Shown in pieces: positions 1,704-37,028 of a stretch of 37,259 bases of DNA (positions are counted from its first letter, which is position 1; every line of letters starts with the position of its first letter). Made by a program: the position numbers and the translations under genes. The notes below the pieces were generated by a model. It had not been told where the DNA came from. It saw only the letters and a program-made list of their open reading frames with translations, and did not search any database. Source of the stretch: a virus. The stretch is from the IMG/VR virus record IMGVR_UViG_3300022602_004803, positions 1 to 37,259 of that record; one strand, 5' to 3'.

Positions 1704-3803
1704 ATGAAGATAATAAACGATAAGCTGGTAATTGAAATGTCCGACATCAGAGTTGAAGGTGTCAATCTTAATATTCAAAGGATATATGAAGGTATTGCCA
1801 AAGAGTTCAAAACCCTTCCAGTTGTATTGGATGAAAAAGGAAACAAGTGTTTAGATTGGAAAGACCTTGGTGATACTTATAAGAAACCTATCACCGACTA
1901 CTACGGAGACCCTTACGACTACTATGCAAAGCAGCCTATACTTGCGATGCTGCCCGAAGTGCCACAGGATGCAAAGGATTTCTATTACGGGTACAGGTAT
2001 GGTGACGACAAGACCCTTCCGGTTGAACATATACAACAATGCCTACGCTACATCCAATGGCTTAGGCTCGTGGATGGCTTCATAAGTGACCCAAAGGTTA
2101 AAAGGGAAATCAAAAAGACACTTAACCTGCACATAGACAAGATTTCCGAGCATATCCGTGACCTGATGGTACTAGACCAGGAGAAGGGAAGAATTGGCGG
2201 CAAACATGCAACAAGCTGGCAGAAAATAACAATCAATACCCGCATATTGGATGGCAAGGCAACCACCAGCAACGGCAGGAAAGGTTACGAAGCCTTTATA
2301 TCGGCTGCTTATGGAAACAACAACGCTCTAAAAGTAACCGATGATACGGTCAAGCTACTGAATAACCTCTTCGTAAAACAATCCTACAAGCCAACCCCCA
2401 CACAAGTTGCACAACAATACCAAGCATTCAAGGCTGGCAAGATGGATATGGTGATGGACAGCACCGGGGAGGTGTTGAACCCTGAGGATTTCCCTGCCTT
2501 GTCTGACGAAGCTGTAAAACATTGGTTATCCAAGTGGGAAAATAAGGCACCAGCAGTTTCAGCACGTACAGGTAACAGGCAGTTGATGATAAACGAGTTG
2601 ATACCTAGCCATTCAAAGGTTCAACCATTGATGGCAGGTAGCAAAATAAGTATAGATGACAGGCAACCGCCTTTTGAATACGGCAAGAGCCAAAGGGTTT
2701 GGTTCTATATGGGAATCGACTTGGCGAGCGGTGCATGGACAGTTTGGGTATATGGCAAAACAAAAGAGGAACTGATACTTAACTTCTACAGACAGATGGT
2801 TCGCAACTATGCAGAGTGGGACTTGTGCCTACCACATGAGCTTGAGTGCGAGATGAGCCTTAATAGCCAATACCTCGACACACTGCTTTCGGAAGGTGCA
2901 ATGTTTAGCAAGGTTGTCTGCGAAGCCAACAATGCGAGGGCAAAGAGGATTGAAAGGTATTTCAGGGACTTGCGGTATGGCAACGAGAAGCTTGAGGACG
3001 GCTGGATACCACGTCCCTTCGCCAAAAGTGAAAGCAATAGGTCTGCACCAAAGAATGCTGACGATACAAAACAAAAGTTTGTCCCTTACGATACCATTAT
3101 TGAAAAGAGCATCGGTCACATAGCCGAGTGGAACAATAGCGAACACCCAAAGCACCCCGGCAAGAGCCGTTGGGAAGTATTCATGACGATGCAGAACCCA
3201 AACCTTCAACCCATCAACTGGCGTGGTATCCTTCCTTACATAGGTTTCAGCACCCGCACTTCTGTAAAAGCCGGGCAACTGAAGCTACAAGGCTGTGACT
3301 GGCTCTTGGGAAGCGGTAGCAGGGTAAGCACAGGTGGGGAATTGATAAACTACCTAAGAATGGTAAACGACCGTGAGGTGATATGCCATTGGCTTGATGC
3401 AAACGATGGCTCTGTATTGAAAGCCCACGTATGCACCACGGACGGACGCTATATCTGCGAAGCCATCAAGAAACCAGCCTACAACACCGCATCAATAGAA
3501 CAAACCGATGCCGACAGGGAAGCAAGGGTAATACTTAGCAAATATGTGGCAACGGTAACAGGCTTTATCAACACCGAGAAGAGGCAATATGAGGGCGTGA
3601 CCACAATAGACAACAGTGAGAAGTTTGTCCCTAAGATAAAATTCGTAGTACCGGGTACTAAAGTAGTCGCAACCGTGACTACAACGGAGCATGAGCCTGA
3701 AAATTTGGGCAATGCCTTTGACGAACCCGAATACATCATTCCAGCAACCAACAATAACAATGTCCCTAGCTGGAGGAGACAATTTTTAAAAGGTAACAAT
3801 TAA
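1704..3803 (+). CDS. MuA-like DDE transposase
   Basis: 699 residues, close to the 663 of Mu A. It cuts phage ends and joins them to target DNA for integration and replicative transposition. The catalytic core starts with Asp339 in YMGIDLASG. The acidic PHELECEMSLN (Glu381/Glu383) lies where the second catalytic Asp of Mu A is expected, so that residue is uncertain. The final Glu is Glu417 in NARAKRIERYFR. A C-terminal Mu-type domain follows (about 490-560, SRWEVF...GCDWLLG). The N-terminal 300 residues should hold the end- and enhancer-binding domains but are not individually recognisable. It precedes the MuB-like gene by three bases, as expected for the A-B pair. Confidence 0.9.
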   Translation: MKIINDKLVIEMSDIRVEGVNLNIQRIYEGIAKEFKTLPVVLDEKGNKCLDWKDLGDTYKKPITDYYGDPYDYYAKQPILAMLPEVPQDAKDFYYGYRYGDDKTLPVEHIQQCLRYIQWLRLVDGFISDPKVKREIKKTLNLHIDKISEHIRDLMVLDQEKGRIGGKHATSWQKITINTRILDGKATTSNGRKGYEAFISAAYGNNNALKVTDDTVKLLNNLFVKQSYKPTPTQVAQQYQAFKAGKMDMVMDSTGEVLNPEDFPALSDEAVKHWLSKWENKAPAVSARTGNRQLMINELIPSHSKVQPLMAGSKISIDDRQPPFEYGKSQRVWFYMGIDLASGAWTVWVYGKTKEELILNFYRQMVRNYAEWDLCLPHELECEMSLNSQYLDTLLSEGAMFSKVVCEANNARAKRIERYFRDLRYGNEKLEDGWIPRPFAKSESNRSAPKNADDTKQKFVPYDTIIEKSIGHIAEWNNSEHPKHPGKSRWEVFMTMQNPNLQPINWRGILPYIGFSTRTSVKAGQLKLQGCDWLLGSGSRVSTGGELINYLRMVNDREVICHWLDANDGSVLKAHVCTTDGRYICEAIKKPAYNTASIEQTDADREARVILSKYVATVTGFINTEKRQYEGVTTIDNSEKFVPKIKFVVPGTKVVATVTTTEHEPENLGNAFDEPEYIIPATNNNNVPSWRRQFLKGNN

Positions 3804-3806
3804 ATT

Positions 3807-4703
3807 ATGCAACTGAGTAAGGAATTCAAACAAGCTGTTTTGTCAGCACTCGAAGCCGACCGTAGGAACTATGGTGGCAACGACACCGCCTTTGCAAAAA
3901 AGTGGGGTATCAACAACGCAGTATATAGCCGACTCAAAAACGGTGAGACCGAAGGGTTGTTGAAGGAAGGACAATGGTTGAGCATCGGCAGGGAACTACA
4001 GGTAAGCCTCACCTCCAAGAAGTGGAACGTGGCAAGAACCAAAGTTTACGCCGACATCGAGGACAACCTTCAGTTCTGCAAGCAGTTCAGCAAGAGCATG
4101 TTGCTGGTTGACGATACGGCAATAGGCAAAACATTCTGTAGCCGCCATATCATCCGGGGGATGCGCAATACCTTCTACATTGATTGCAGTGAAAGCAAGA
4201 CCAAGCAACTGTTCATCCGCACACTTGCCAAGACCATCGGCGTGGACAATACAGGAAAATACAGCGAGGTAAAAGCCAACTTGAAATACTATTTAAAGCA
4301 GCTTGAAAAGCCATTGATAGTGCTTGACGAGGCTGGCGACTTGGATTACCCTGCCTTCTTGGAACTAAAGGAACTGTGGAATGCTACCGAAGGAGTCTGC
4401 GGTTATTACCTGATGGGTGCAGACGGCTTGGAAGCCAAGATATACAGTGGCATTGCCTGTAAGAAGGTTGGCTACCGTGAGATATTCAGCAGGTTCAATA
4501 ATCAGTTCATTCATATAGTGCCGAGGGTACTGGGCGAAAGGGTAGAGTTCTACAAGGGATTGATTGCCGATGTATTGACCGTAAACGCCTCAAATAAGGC
4601 GATTGTTCCGAGTTTGGTAAAGCAGTGCATGAGTAATGACGATAGGGGCAATATTGGCGGCTTACGCAGGGCAGAAACACTATTGTTAATCAGTGAAAAT
4701 TAA
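3807..4703 (+). CDS. MuB-like AAA+ ATPase, transposition target selector
   Basis: 298 residues (Mu B is 312). Residues 1-70 form a DNA-binding N-domain (NDTAFAKKWGINNAVYSRLK). The ATPase core has Walker A VDDTAIGKT at 101-109, with Asp instead of the usual first Gly, and Walker B IVLDEAGD at 171-178. In Mu, B binds target DNA as an ATP-dependent filament, delivers it to MuA and provides target immunity. It follows the transposase directly and was probably translated with it. The altered first P-loop position recalls relatives in Bacteroidota, from memory, and is probably a family trait rather than damage. Confidence 0.88.
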   Translation: MQLSKEFKQAVLSALEADRRNYGGNDTAFAKKWGINNAVYSRLKNGETEGLLKEGQWLSIGRELQVSLTSKKWNVARTKVYADIEDNLQFCKQFSKSMLLVDDTAIGKTFCSRHIIRGMRNTFYIDCSESKTKQLFIRTLAKTIGVDNTGKYSEVKANLKYYLKQLEKPLIVLDEAGDLDYPAFLELKELWNATEGVCGYYLMGADGLEAKIYSGIACKKVGYREIFSRFNNQFIHIVPRVLGERVEFYKGLIADVLTVNASNKAIVPSLVKQCMSNDDRGNIGGLRRAETLLLISEN

Positions 4704-6954: not shown

Positions 6955-7560
6955 ATGACAAATACTTTCCACCCGGTTGAACAATGCAATGATGGAGTTA
7001 TAAATACCTCTTCAGGGATTGTGGTAGACCTAAAGAACCCTACCACCGATATGATAGACATAAAGGACATTGCCACCAGCCTTAGTAAGATATGCCGCTT
7101 TGGCGGTCATACAAACAGGTTCTACAGCGTTGCGCAGCACAGCGTATTGGTAAGCCACCTTATGAAGGAAGGCGAAGGCACTTATGAACTGGAGGCATTG
7201 ATGCACGATGCCAGCGAAGCCTACCTCGGCGATATGGTGAAACCCCTGAAAGTGATACTCGGCAACAATTACAAATGGCTGGAAGGCAAGTTTGAAAACG
7301 TTATTGCCAAAAAGTTTGACCTGCGCCAAAGCCTTGACGTTGAGAAGCTTGTACACAAATACGATGTGCAAGCCCTGCACCTTGAGCATGAGGCATTCCA
7401 AAAAGGAAACCACGTGCCTTTGATACTTGCCTTTGATAGGCTGGGGATTTACACTGGTCACATCAACTGGGACTGCCATGAGGCAAAGCGTTATTTCCTT
7501 GTGTGCTTTGCGGAATGCTTGGGCATAAGGGAGCATAAGAATGCGGCAATGGTATCATAG
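6955..7560 (+). CDS. HD-domain phosphohydrolase (YfbR-like nucleotidase)
   Basis: 201 residues. The HD metal site is complete: His62 (VAQHSVLVS), His84-Asp85 (LMHDASEAYLGD) and Asp137 (VHKYDVQ), with Glu88 and Asp93 in the usual second-shell positions. The size and motif spacing fit YfbR-type 5'-deoxynucleotidases, which release nucleosides from dNMPs, and phage relatives that trim nucleotide pools. It could adjust nucleotide pools during replication. Some related phage enzymes remove dATP in 2-aminoadenine phages, but no PurZ-like gene is present, so that role is unlikely here. Preceded by an A/T-rich leader typical of Bacteroidota. Confidence 0.8.
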   Translation: MTNTFHPVEQCNDGVINTSSGIVVDLKNPTTDMIDIKDIATSLSKICRFGGHTNRFYSVAQHSVLVSHLMKEGEGTYELEALMHDASEAYLGDMVKPLKVILGNNYKWLEGKFENVIAKKFDLRQSLDVEKLVHKYDVQALHLEHEAFQKGNHVPLILAFDRLGIYTGHINWDCHEAKRYFLVCFAECLGIREHKNAAMVS

Positions 7561-8633: not shown

Positions 8634-9344
8634 ATGAAAAAAATAATATGGGCGGGTATCCTCGCTATCGCACTGAGTCTGGCAATAACAATTGGAGTAA
8701 TGGCTCAGACAATCACTTTGCACCACAAGAACTACGATTGCCAGTTCGACACCATCTTTTGCCAAGGTGTGCTGAACGACTACTGGCAGACACAGGCACA
8801 TTACAACATCATCAAGAGCAGTGCGAAGGTCAACCGCAAGGCTGCTGGCAAGTTCAAGCAAGACCCATTAGTGCCAGCGAGGTTTCAACTCGTAACCCAA
8901 AACGACTATGACGACTACAACAAAGCCCACCCGAAGCATAAGTTGAACATCGGGCATGAAGTCCCGGCGCAACCAATGTCATTCGATTTAGAGGCACTGA
9001 CAGAGACTTTCTATTTTGGCAGCAACACGGGCTTGCAGGACGGTTACTTCAACCAACACCAGTGGGCTTTTGTGGAGGGAAAGGTATTTGACCTTAGCGA
9101 GAAAGAGGACAGCATACACGTCTACACGGGAGTGTTGGTGGACAGCAACTCGGTAAGGATAGGCAATGGATGGATGCCTGACTGGTATTTCAAGGTTGCG
9201 GTCACAAAGGAAGGGAAAAAGGCTTGGCTGGGTCTGAACAATGAGACCAACATCGATACCAACCCAGACGACATTGTTATTGACGTGGAAGCCCTAAAAG
9301 CTAAGATACGTGCCTATTACCCACACCTTTATTTGCCTTTTTAA
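8634..9344 (+). CDS. exported DNA/RNA non-specific endonuclease (NUC-like)
   Basis: 236 residues from the ATG at 8634; a 10-residue upstream extension would hide the signal peptide and is rejected. The signal peptide has a hydrophobic core at 5-22 and a cut at VMA|Q (24/25). The catalytic region is like the Serratia-type beta-beta-alpha-metal nucleases: GHEVPAQPM at 107-115 corresponds to the DRGHL-PA motif with His108, followed by a metal-ligand-like Asn (Asn131 or Asn140) and a Trp/Glu pair (Trp144, Glu148). The usual Asp-Arg before Gly-His is replaced by Leu-Asn-Ile, so activity is likely but altered specificity is possible. It is unusual as an exported enzyme within the early, intracellular gene block. 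Confidence 0.7.
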   Translation: MKKIIWAGILAIALSLAITIGVMAQTITLHHKNYDCQFDTIFCQGVLNDYWQTQAHYNIIKSSAKVNRKAAGKFKQDPLVPARFQLVTQNDYDDYNKAHPKHKLNIGHEVPAQPMSFDLEALTETFYFGSNTGLQDGYFNQHQWAFVEGKVFDLSEKEDSIHVYTGVLVDSNSVRIGNGWMPDWYFKVAVTKEGKKAWLGLNNETNIDTNPDDIVIDVEALKAKIRAYYPHLYLPF

Positions 9345-9694: not shown

Positions 9695-10192
9695 ATGAAC
9701 AAATCAGAAGAGATTATCGAAGTAAAGAAAGCGAATGCCATTAAAGCATTCAATGCGGCTGACGATTCCAACAAGGAAATGTTGGCAAACCTATTGGGGA
9801 AGGAACACTTCCTAAACATTGAGGACAGGATACAAACCTTTGAGGATGCCTTGGAAATAGATGGGGAGAAAGACAAGGATGTGCTATGGCTCATCAACTA
9901 TTCAGGCAGTCACCCTGACATGGTTTCAGCAGCTAACTTTATGAAAGCTGTCATCCTTACAAGGGTTTACAATGAGGGATGGGTGGCAGACTATAAGGAT
10001 AGTAACCAACCTAAATACGAAATAATATACAAGCACAAACCGGGCTTCGGGCTGGCGTACCACGACTACGATGGCTGGTCTACGCATACGGGTGTCGGCT
10101 CTCGCCTTTGCTTCAAGACACCTGAATTAGGCAAACATGTCACGACTAAACACCCTGAAATATTCAGGGATTTCTTAACAATAAAAAAGTAA
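9695..10192 (+). CDS. DGR target protein 1 (variable protein)
   Basis: 165 residues, no signal peptide or membrane segment. The N-terminal 85 residues are helical and acidic. Then VYNEGWVADYKDSNQPKYE leads into the variable block. The variable repeat encodes residues 116-140 (PGFGLAYHDYDGWSTHTGVG). Relative to the template, diversified codons are His123, Gly127, Ser129, His131, Gly133, Gly135 and Arg137. The framework Tyr122, Asp124, Tyr125, Asp126, Trp128, Thr130 and Thr132 is unchanged. A constant C-terminal tail (ELGKHVTTKHPEIFRDFL) follows. I recall short proteins with this ending (GSRLCFKS-EL) as DGR targets in Bacteroidota phages; the ligand is unknown. It is the first gene of the DGR cassette, preceded by a 43-base A/T-rich leader. 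Confidence 0.85.
   Translation: MNKSEEIIEVKKANAIKAFNAADDSNKEMLANLLGKEHFLNIEDRIQTFEDALEIDGEKDKDVLWLINYSGSHPDMVSAANFMKAVILTRVYNEGWVADYKDSNQPKYEIIYKHKPGFGLAYHDYDGWSTHTGVGSRLCFKTPELGKHVTTKHPEIFRDFLTIKK
10041..10113 (+). repeat. variable repeat VR1 of the DGR
   Basis: 73 bases aligned without gaps to template 10652-10724. There are 13 mismatches, and all 13 fall on template adenines (template positions 10653, 10672, 10684, 10685, 10690, 10691, 10696, 10702, 10703, 10708, 10715, 10719, 10724). Every non-adenine template base is conserved. This adenine-only pattern is the signature of mutagenic retrohoming. Confidence 0.95.
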
Positions 10193-10195
10193 AAA

Positions 10196-10609
10196 ATGAG
10201 TAAAGCTGATGAACGCTTCATAGCGTTGTGTGAAAAACATGCGGTAGACCCCAATGCCATTGTGGATGTGTCCAAAGTGCCTGAAAAGCGCAAGAGGTAC
10301 AGTCTTGCCTGTGACAAGCTCGCAATTATAGCGGAATGCTACAACAAAGAGGACGAAGACGGCAATATCGTGGAAATGGAATTGTTTCCGGATTATACCA
10401 ATCGAAGACAATGGAAGTATGAACTTTTATTTCAGCTAGTAAAGGATGAAAGTTCGGTGTCGGGCTTCGGGCTGGCGTACGACGACTACGATACCTGGCT
10501 TACGTGTACGTGTGTCGGCTCTCGCCTTTGCTGGAGGAGCGTAGCGACTGGGAAACGGGCTTTTGCAGACTTCACCGAGTACTTCGAGGACGTCTATCTG
10601 CCCGCATAA
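10196..10609 (+). CDS. DGR target protein 2 (variable protein)
   Basis: 137 residues, starting three bases after target 1. No signal peptide. It has the same plan as target 1 with little sequence identity outside the repeat: a helical N-domain with IIAECYNKED, a PDYTNRRQWKYE linker, the variable block at residues 89-113, and a different tail (KRAFADFTEYFEDVYL). Diversified codons are Asp96, Thr100, Leu102, Cys104, Cys106, Gly108, Arg110 and Trp113. The framework Tyr95, Asp97, Tyr98, Asp99, Trp101, Thr103 and Thr105 is unchanged. Trp113 comes from a TAG in the template that became TGG. Two Cys in the variable block are notable for a cytoplasmic protein. The two targets look like diverged paralogues fed by one template. 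Confidence 0.85.
   Translation: MSKADERFIALCEKHAVDPNAIVDVSKVPEKRKRYSLACDKLAIIAECYNKEDEDGNIVEMELFPDYTNRRQWKYELLFQLVKDESSVSGFGLAYDDYDTWLTCTCVGSRLCWRSVATGKRAFADFTEYFEDVYLPA
10452..10534 (+). repeat. variable repeat VR2 of the DGR
   Basis: 83 bases aligned to template 10643-10725 without gaps. There are 13 mismatches, all at template adenines: seven A-to-G, four A-to-T and two A-to-C. The first ten bases (GTTCGGTGTC) match the template perfectly, so VR2 shares ten more 5' bases with the template than VR1. Identity ends at 10535, where the first non-adenine mismatch occurs. Confidence 0.95.
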
Positions 10610-10642
10610 ATTAAAAGGGTGGTACACTGTCGTGCTGAGGTT

Positions 10643-10725
10643 GTTCGGTGTCAGGCTTCGGGCTGGCGTACAACGACTACGATAACTGGAATACGAATAC
10701 GAATGTCAGCTCTCACCTATGCTAG
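10643..10725 (+). repeat. DGR template repeat (TR), part of a non-coding RNA
   Basis: Adenine-rich copy of the variable repeats in the 220-base gap between target 2 and the reverse transcriptase. It contains 21 adenines, 14 of which differ in at least one variable repeat. Read in the VR frame it gives SGFGLAYNDYDNWNTNTNV: five AAY (Asn) codons, the classic DGR design because randomising two adenines reaches many residues but no stop. It ends in frame with TAG. It has no ORF of its own and is probably transcribed with target 2 and the RT as the RNA that the RT copies. I see no long GC-only tract or strong hairpin right after the repeats. Confidence 0.93.
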
Positions 10726-10829
10726 GGCAAATTATATGACATTGTAGACCTTGGCTCTTGCCAAAAAACAAATTCAATTGGAGGGGCTTTGGTAGCGAAA
10801 GCGAAGAAGACCCTTGACAAGCAAAGCAA

Positions 10830-11786
10830 ATGAAAAGGAAAAGCGATTTATTCAGTCAGGTGGCAAGTTTGGAAAACCTCAAGCTTGCAGATGTCAAAGC
10901 CCAAAAAGGGAAGGCAAACCAATATGGCGTAAGGCTTCACAACGCAAACCGGGAAGCCAATATTCAGGCACTCCACGAAATGTTGACAAAGAAAACCTAC
11001 AGGACTTCGCAGTACAGCACCTTTAAGGTCTATGAGCCAAAGGAGCGGGAAGTATTCAGGTTGCCCTATTTCCCCGACAGGATATTGCACCACGCCGTTA
11101 TGAACGTTTTAGAGCCTGTTTTCATGGCTTGCTTCACGAGTGATACATATTCCTGCATAAAGGGGAAAGGCATCCACGCTGCCGCCTTAGCGGTGAAAAC
11201 AGCCCTTCGTGACGAAGCCAACACAACCTACTGTTTGAAATTGGACATAAAGAAGTTCTACCCGAATGTAGACCACGATATTTTGAAGCAATTGTTGAGA
11301 AGGAAGATAAAAGACAATGACTTGTTGTGGCTATTGGACGAGATAATCGATAGTGCGGAAGGTCTGCCAATAGGCAACTATCTCAGCCAGTATTTTGCCA
11401 ACTTCTACCTCACATATTTCGACCATTGGATAAAGGAAGACAAAGCAGTGAGGTATTATTTTCGCTACGCTGACGATATCGTGGTGTTAAGTGGCGACAA
11501 GGCTTATTTGCACAGATTGTTTGCTGAGATCACTATTTACCTGAAGGAAAATTTGAAGTTGACGGTAAAGGGCAACTGGCAGGTTTTCCCTGTTGAGGCC
11601 AGGAGCATAGACTTCGTTGGTTACAGGTTCTACCACACCCATATTTTATTGAGGAAAACAATCAAACAAAGCTTTGCTAGGATGCTGAAGAAAAGAAAGA
11701 ACAGGGCATCCATTGCCGCCTACAAGGGTTGGCTCAAGCACTGCAATTCAATTAACCTAATGAAAAAATTATTACCCAATGAATGA
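10830..11786 (+). CDS. DGR reverse transcriptase
   Basis: 318 residues, a typical size for DGR enzymes. Key motifs: FRLPYFPDRILHHAV (77-91), catalytic LDIKKFYPNVDH with Asp139, GNYLSQ at 182-187, YADD at 213-216 with Asp215 and Asp216, and a thumb start KLTVKGNWQVFP. Ser-Gln in the fourth motif, where group II intron and retroviral enzymes have Ser-Pro or other residues, is a mark of DGR enzymes and fits error-prone copying of template adenines. There is no maturase, endonuclease or RNase H domain. It lies directly downstream of the template and overlaps the next gene by eight bases. Confidence 0.93.
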   Translation: MKRKSDLFSQVASLENLKLADVKAQKGKANQYGVRLHNANREANIQALHEMLTKKTYRTSQYSTFKVYEPKEREVFRLPYFPDRILHHAVMNVLEPVFMACFTSDTYSCIKGKGIHAAALAVKTALRDEANTTYCLKLDIKKFYPNVDHDILKQLLRRKIKDNDLLWLLDEIIDSAEGLPIGNYLSQYFANFYLTYFDHWIKEDKAVRYYFRYADDIVVLSGDKAYLHRLFAEITIYLKENLKLTVKGNWQVFPVEARSIDFVGYRFYHTHILLRKTIKQSFARMLKKRKNRASIAAYKGWLKHCNSINLMKKLLPNE

Positions 11787-12081
11787 ATTTAAGAGTTTCA
11801 ATATCAAGGCAGAGACCAAGAGTTTCGAGGGAGAAAAGATTAGAGTAGACAAGATACTGAATAGAAAAATAACTGTGCTTGCATTCAAGATAGAAGAAAG
11901 CAAGTTCAAGGATAAAGGCAACGGCAAGTGCCTTTATATCCAAATTGAGTATGACCAGGAGAAAAGGATATTGTTTACAGGCTCAACCTACCTGATGGAC
12001 ATGATACAAAAAGTCCCAAGCGATAAATTCCCATTTACCACCACTATACAAAAACTGAACGAGCATTTGGAGTTCACATAA
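11779..12081 (+). CDS. small conserved protein coupled to the DGR RT
   Basis: 100 residues, overlapping the RT stop by eight bases, so coupled translation is likely. Beta-rich pattern: FKSFNIKAETKSFEGEKI, then ITVLAFKIEESKF, then CLYIQIEYDQEKRILFTGS, with a basic N-terminal half. The pattern suggests a small OB-like or single-strand-binding fold, by inference. I recall similar proteins in gut Bacteroidota phages near replication genes. It is not recognisably Avd (the helical, barrel-forming partner of many DGR enzymes), but it is the best candidate here for an RT accessory. It may equally be an unrelated replication protein. Confidence 0.6.
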   Translation: MNEFKSFNIKAETKSFEGEKIRVDKILNRKITVLAFKIEESKFKDKGNGKCLYIQIEYDQEKRILFTGSTYLMDMIQKVPSDKFPFTTTIQKLNEHLEFT

Positions 12082-36218: not shown

Positions 36219-37028
36219 ATGAAAGATTTTAATTTGAGGACACCCATCAGTTATTATGGTGGCAAGCAAAAGTTGGTGAGAACCATAGTGGGATTTATCC
36301 CGGAACACAAAATGTATGTAGAGCCGTTCCTAGGTGGGGCGGCTGTATATTTTGGCAAAGAACCAAGTGAAATAGAGGTAATCAATGACACCAACAAAGA
36401 GGTGATTAACTTCTACAAAGTATTAAAGAACCGTTACCATGATCTCAGCGCATTGGTACGTGTCACGCTTCACAGTAGGGACGACCACGACAGCGCATGG
36501 ATTATCTACAACAAGCCACAGTTGTTTGATGAAGTCAGGAGGGCTTGGGCAGTTTGGGTGTTGAGTACCCAAAGCTTCTGTTCCGGTCTCGAAAAGAATT
36601 GGGGCTATGACAAGGCCGACAATACGACCACAAAGAAGATTACCAATAAGCGTGAACAGTTTGTTGAGGATTTGGCTTTGAGGCTTCAAAATACACAGGT
36701 CGAATGTGCAGACGCTCTATACATCATTGGTAGCAGGGACACGGTTGATAGTTTCTTTTATTGTGACCCACCGTACTATAATAGTGATTGCGGACACTAT
36801 AATGGCTATAAGGAAAGTGACTTTGACGAACTACTGAAGAAGCTTTCAACTATCAAGGGTAAGTTTCTATTGAGCAGTTACCCAAGTGATATACTTACTA
36901 AATATGCCAAGGAACACAACTGGCATCAATGGAGCGTGGAGAGCAATGTAAGTGTGAATGCAAAAGGGAGGGGTGGTTACCAAAAGCGTAAGACTGAGAT
37001 GCTGACGGCTAATTATGAATTGAAATAG
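36219..37028 (+). CDS. Dam-like N6-adenine DNA methyltransferase
   Basis: 269 residues, D12 class. AdoMet-binding motif I VEPFLGGAAVYF (34-45) and catalytic DPPY at 183-186 (FYCDPPYYNSD), with the N-terminal SYYGGKQKLV typical of the class. No partner restriction enzyme is present, so it is probably an orphan that protects phage DNA from host restriction or alters regulation. The C-terminal motif region (GRGGYQKRKTEML) is also like Dam relatives. Target sequence cannot be told from here. Near the right end of the prophage, where Mu has its own DNA modification gene (mom, unrelated). Confidence 0.85.
   Translation: MKDFNLRTPISYYGGKQKLVRTIVGFIPEHKMYVEPFLGGAAVYFGKEPSEIEVINDTNKEVINFYKVLKNRYHDLSALVRVTLHSRDDHDSAWIIYNKPQLFDEVRRAWAVWVLSTQSFCSGLEKNWGYDKADNTTTKKITNKREQFVEDLALRLQNTQVECADALYIIGSRDTVDSFFYCDPPYYNSDCGHYNGYKESDFDELLKKLSTIKGKFLLSSYPSDILTKYAKEHNWHQWSVESNVSVNAKGRGGYQKRKTEMLTANYELK

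Follow-up and report, generated by a model that had tools for sequence, protein, structure and literature searches.

The 37,259-nt linear virus contig IMGVR_UViG_3300022602_004803, examined as a whole record and hereafter called the window, very probably carries a diversity-generating retroelement (DGR) of a Mu-like phage with a Bacteroidota-type host, in which a reverse transcriptase (RT) would drive the rewriting, at adenines, of two variable repeats (VR1 and VR2) from a single template repeat (TR; Table 1). The locus contains TR/VR pairs whose differences are confined to adenines, a DGR-type RT beside the TR, and VRs located within open target genes. New here are the two tandem small targets, an RT-linked helper with a predicted OB-like fold in the place of bAvd, and a spacer RNA that resembles RT-17.

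Table 1. Features of the DGR and of the transposition module in the window
Feature	Position	Strand	Details
Mu-type transposase A	1704..3803	+	phrog_310, 2.2e-29
MuB-like transposition ATPase	3807..4703	+	phrog_296, 5.2e-30; AAA_22
Target gene A, 165 aa	9695..10192	+	phrog_11581; N-terminal helical domain, internal VR1, C-terminal helix
VR1 (in target A)	10041..10113	+	73 nt; 13 differences from TR, all at TR adenines
IMH-like 3' end of VR1	10094..10113	+	GTCGGCTCTCGCCTTTGCT; fixed differences from TR common to both VRs
Target gene B, 137 aa	10196..10609	+	phrog_11581, E=0.006; begins 3 nt after A
VR2 (in target B)	10452..10534	+	83 nt; 13 differences from TR, all at TR adenines
IMH-like 3' end of VR2	10514..10533	+	same fixed differences from TR as VR1
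TR	10643..10725	+	in-frame TAG at 10724-10726
IMH*-like 3' end of TR	10705..10724	+	GTCAGCTCTCACCTATGCT
Structured spacer RNA, RT-17-like	10747..10833	+	hairpins at ~10751-10764 and 10782-10814
DGR RT, 318 aa	10830..11786	+	RVT_1, 1.6e-17; phrog_1423, 2.5e-121
Accessory protein, 100 aa	11779..12081	+	phrog_19665; overlaps RT stop by 8 nt

Template and variable repeats

A base-by-base comparison of the repeats in register (offsets of 611 for VR1 and 191 for VR2) agrees with the original prediction of ungapped matches between the TR and both VRs, with 13 differences in each and 26 of 26 on TR adenines; the non-A positions of the TR are perfectly matched in both VRs. The chance that 13 mismatches all fall on the 21 adenines is 2e-9 for the 73-nt repeat and 4e-10 for the 83-nt repeat. 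No further repeats were found in the record outside the cassette, and the proposed assignment of one template to two targets is supported. When close copies of the TR skeleton were sought, a single relative was recovered, L180, with 77% DNA identity.

The 3' ends of the repeats differ in a constant manner, with GTCAGCTCTCACCTATGCT in the TR opposite GTCGGCTCTCGCCTTTGCT in both VRs of the window. Five of the differing TR adenines (10653, 10703, 10708, 10715 and 10719) are replaced by the same base in both VRs, and the 3' differences among these (10708, 10715 and 10719) are identical between the VRs in most relatives as well. In a set of 89 two-VR loci, the replacement of a TR adenine is nearly always identical between the VRs if the adenine lies within approximately 14 nt of the 3' end or beyond approximately 58 nt, and the bases between vary. 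By analogy with BPP-1, which is the basis of the IMH*/IMH reading (PMC3240598, PMC12875486), the shared 3' differences seem to reflect a fixed difference between IMH and IMH* and not mutagenesis. The differences at the edges fit this family-wide fixed pattern, and hence fewer than 26 differences have been separately rewritten; the earlier view that both VRs were rewritten separately holds for the core codons and fails for the shared 3' differences of the IMH type.

Activity of the element

The DGR is active in its family, to judge from the sequences of relatives of the window phage. In one pair of related loci (L004/L084), 21 of the 40 VR adenines differ, compared to 0 of the 116 non-A positions in the VRs and 0 of the 2908 positions outside. 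Two other pairs that are identical outside the VRs differ within them exclusively at TR adenines, in 11 of 40 (L039/L041) and 13 of 55 cases (L070/L071), and the TR is unchanged in all these pairs. In L031 and L032, which are 3.5% different outside the VRs, both VRs have changed, at 10 and 8 positions, all of them TR adenines. Thus, the adenine-restricted variation that the original prediction proposed to look for in related loci is present in the family; such adenine-specific change in natural populations is seen in relatives only.

That the repeats are ordinary duplicates, with differences arising by chance or selection, would be compatible with the domain common to both targets, but neither VR has any non-A difference, and a control scan of 161 RT loci yielded 255 pairs when A was the template letter allowed to differ and, in the same loci, zero pairs for C, G or T. 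We regard this explanation as already refuted and give it virtually no credence. Decay of the element with loss of homing would fit the fact that the evidence of variation comes from relatives and none of it from the window phage itself; nevertheless, every frame is open, the RT motif is intact, the match at non-A positions is perfect and the relatives are active, all of which makes decay very unlikely.

Target genes

Judging by profile matches, targets A and B belong to the uncharacterised phage family phrog_11581. Searches of Pfam and NCBIfam with the targets identified no known domain, neither target matched tail families, and the PDB sequence search returned nothing credible. For target A, a fold search found no solved relative, and the matches in BFVD are uncharacterised phage proteins only. 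The model of this protein has a helical N-terminal part, and the C-lectin fold was matched neither by sequence nor by fold, the VR part of the model being of low confidence. A search of viral contigs with target B of the window yielded no loci.

Among the 138 relatives with a pairable TR that the architecture counts cover, 91 loci have two VR matches, 17 have three and two have four (110 of 138 with at least two), a few of these being split matches inside one VR. The usual order is A-B-TR-RT, with the VR-VR-TR-RT arrangement kept in most of the 138 loci, a median A-B gap of 8 nt and a TR-RT gap of about 107 nt. In Sphingobacterium griseoflavum, a single ORF of 286 aa (L136:6928-7788) encompasses both targets and both VRs, a natural fusion that, together with the adjacency of the genes, suggests that A and B probably act together. 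The variable proteins probably bind something that itself varies. Extra small targets that match the same TR are located kilobases away in several loci (L126:3020 and 15083, L072:370, L116:4452). Sister RTs from Bacteroidales are associated with targets of 430-480 aa in which the VR is C-terminal, and in the RT tree these large-target loci branch among the small-target loci, with modest support. Relatives of the targets are also present in L207 and L212, with the RT absent within approximately 4 kb downstream.

Spacer RNA between the template and the reverse transcriptase

The window spacer matches the RT-17 RNA (Rfam RF03020) over its full length and shares with it the structure and the location directly before the RT, whereas its score (36.8 bits, E = 9.7e-5) misses the gathering threshold of 40.4, which three more distant relatives pass. 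In an alignment of 78 relatives, covariation supports 12 pairs, 11 of which show changes on both sides, and 96% of the alignment cells are paired, compared to 32-44% in slid versions. The window spacer is likely a divergent branch of RT-17, and the match suggests that RT-17 itself may serve as the spacer in the template RNA of DGRs.

Reverse transcriptase and accessory protein

The downstream gene was expected to encode a DGR-class RT, and its profile matches (Table 1), along with the GLPIGNYLSQ and YADD motifs in the sequence, confirm this assignment. Each of the 112 small-target loci that could be tested has a member of the accessory family where the RT ends. When viral loci were retrieved through the accessory protein alone, 12 of 12 had an RT just upstream, and the only four matches of this protein in 396 Flavobacteriales genomes all adjoin an RT. 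In an archaeal virus whose target is of the Mtd type, the accessory protein likewise comes after the RT; the two are fused in one ORF in Bacteroides phage BT-TP2 (L184:2086-3381) and in a Bacteroidales genome (L192, minus strand 1224-2576). In large-target loci, a homologue is found 300-1,240 nt downstream in some and is missing in others.

The model of the accessory protein shows the arrangement E-E-E-H-E-E (pLDDT 90). The best VIA rows in the fold comparison are mostly OB domains, with Z <= 6.5, under the tool's safe level, and the Foldseek matches are weak (E >= 0.16). From the model, an OB-like fold is predicted, and we infer a nucleic-acid role. A PDB sequence search with this protein returned nothing credible, and a viral-contig search with its alignment yielded no loci. 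The accessory profile had no match in BPP-1, four crAss-like phages and BalMu-1, in a run without a positive, the same profile having matched elsewhere. The C-terminal extensions of crAss-like RTs, which are alike by eye, were considered as homologues and rejected as significance was not reached. The protein may already be described in earlier literature on DGR accessory proteins.

Avd is essential in the best-studied DGR. In the window and in the virus records of 14 relatives, bAvd (PF22296) is absent, as judged by a search that recovers the BPP-1 protein as the positive control (2e-37) and that a very divergent Avd may escape. The description of the DGR as complete accordingly stands for the RT, the TR and the two VRs and has to be amended with respect to bAvd, the helper position being taken by the protein of about 100 aa.

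Comparison with known systems

The element resembles the BPP-1 system (mtd-avd-TR-brt) in the RT, the location of the TR upstream of the RT, the adenine-only changes in the VRs, the constant 3' end that differs between VR and TR, and the structured TR-RT spacer, which in BPP-1 folds, recruits bRT-Avd and primes cDNA synthesis (PMC12875486). Unlike in BPP-1, bAvd is absent, an OB-like protein comes after the RT, and the targets are two small non-tail proteins with internal VRs. Hairpins 3' of the VRs show no enrichment among 253 VRs (mean best stem of 4.2, compared to 4.0 for shuffled sequences); in the window, a 7-bp stem is located further 3' of VR1, and VR2 has 3 bp only.

The hankyphage of Bacteroides, compared here by its published description, is likewise Mu-like and transposable, infects Bacteroidota and has an active DGR, the target of which had no known relatives at first description, but it has a single pair of 117-bp repeats, subsequently interpreted as tail fibre (PMC6199706, PMC12135933), and a helper annotated as Avd, in contrast to the two tandem small targets of the window. 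The nd4/nd12 tentaclin DGRs also combine one TR with two targets; these, however, are C-lec receptor-binding proteins differing in topology (PMC10743442), whereas the window encodes its targets as a pair of small related proteins in adjacent genes.

In LoVEphage (PMC8525569), a relative of the window targets is present as a remote VR, the differences being that the TR is 113 nt long and also serves a VR adjoining the RT. The remote target is separated from the RT by about 14 kb and aligns with the TR along 113 nt, its 19 differences all being at adenines; the second VR, in the RT-adjacent ORF, has 17 such differences from the TR, and WGGS...GSRL is common to this ORF and the small-target VR. 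A tail collar fibre has been placed upstream of the RT in this phage (PMC8525569). The LoVEphage loci are L185:2908-3492 and L198, in which a single TR pairs with the early-region small target and with the RT-adjacent VR; the RT (L198:2777-3972) is matched in three separate pieces in 6 of 6 LoVEphage-like records among the matches listed.

Proposed mechanism and roles of the targets

Under the proposed mechanism, transcription would cover the TR together with the structured spacer that follows it, and the RT would copy the TR to cDNA with random bases opposite adenines, probably assisted by the OB-like protein of about 100 aa made by coupled translation. By analogy with BPP-1, cDNA synthesis would be primed in the spacer, and the IMH in the VRs would mark the recipients, with the IMH* keeping the TR intact. 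Either VR1 of gene A or VR2 of gene B would then be replaced by the cDNA, the output being two small variable proteins; to our knowledge, the route of cDNA into the VR is still unclear. We tentatively suggest, at somewhat less than even confidence, a branch of DGRs in which Avd has given way to an OB-fold protein that is coupled to the RT or fused with it and works with RT-17 RNA, and in which the diversified product is an intracellular recognition protein of two chains and not a tail fibre. The element, whose helper is linked to the RT, whose spacer RNA is defined and whose targets show no enriched hairpin, is an independent system for finding general DGR parts, and its two small non-tail targets allow one to test what phages diversify besides tail fibres.

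The targets may work inside the cell, for instance by binding proteins of the host or of rival phages (superinfection exclusion, anti-defence), with the variation selected in the lysogen, a reading that falls somewhat short of an even chance. It is consistent with the position in the early region, with the target sequences, in which a signal peptide was not seen, with the two-gene unit and its natural fusion, and with the carriage of the cassette by Mu-type and integrase-type records alike; against it, no partner or activity is known for A and B, and no homology to defence or anti-defence families was detected in Pfam, PHROGs or NCBIfam. Alternatively, the targets might be virion receptor-binding proteins and the cassette a switch of host tropism, as with Mtd in BPP-1. 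Tail proteins are reported as the target of most phage DGRs (PMC8144416), and both the LoVEphage TR, with its matches to the RT-adjacent VR and the distant small-target relative, and the long targets of the Bacteroidales sister RTs point in this direction. However, the position of the cassette, with the early genes on one side and the packaging module on the other, is remote from the tail and baseplate genes, and the targets are only 137 and 165 aa long, with the VR internal and no tail-family match; a role in tropism appears rather unlikely. The LoVEphage link connects the small targets with DGR targets at large and fits tropism and intracellular roles alike.

Phage setting

The Mu-like setting claimed for the cassette is borne out by the MuA-type transposase (phrog_310) and MuB (phrog_296), both encoded in the window along with contractile-tail genes; terminase, portal, head, sheath, tape measure and baseplate genes are present. 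The term prophage goes beyond the record, which is a linear virus contig in which no host flank was identified. Among the 24 virus records with related cassettes, 12 encode the phrog_310 transposase and 10 have an integrase match (9 above the cut-off), and thus the cassette is not tied to Mu-like phages. Nearly all relatives in genomes belong to Bacteroidota and Ignavibacteria; Bacillota contribute more distant ones. In the L083 record, the transposase match (L181) contains two internal TAA stops, and an integrase is encoded in the same record. Directly 5' of the cassette, the window encodes an Endonuclease_NS-type nuclease with a probable signal peptide (8634-9344); elsewhere, it encodes a nucleotide phosphatase-like protein (phrog_318; 6955-7560) and a phage-borne DNA methyltransferase (36219-37028).
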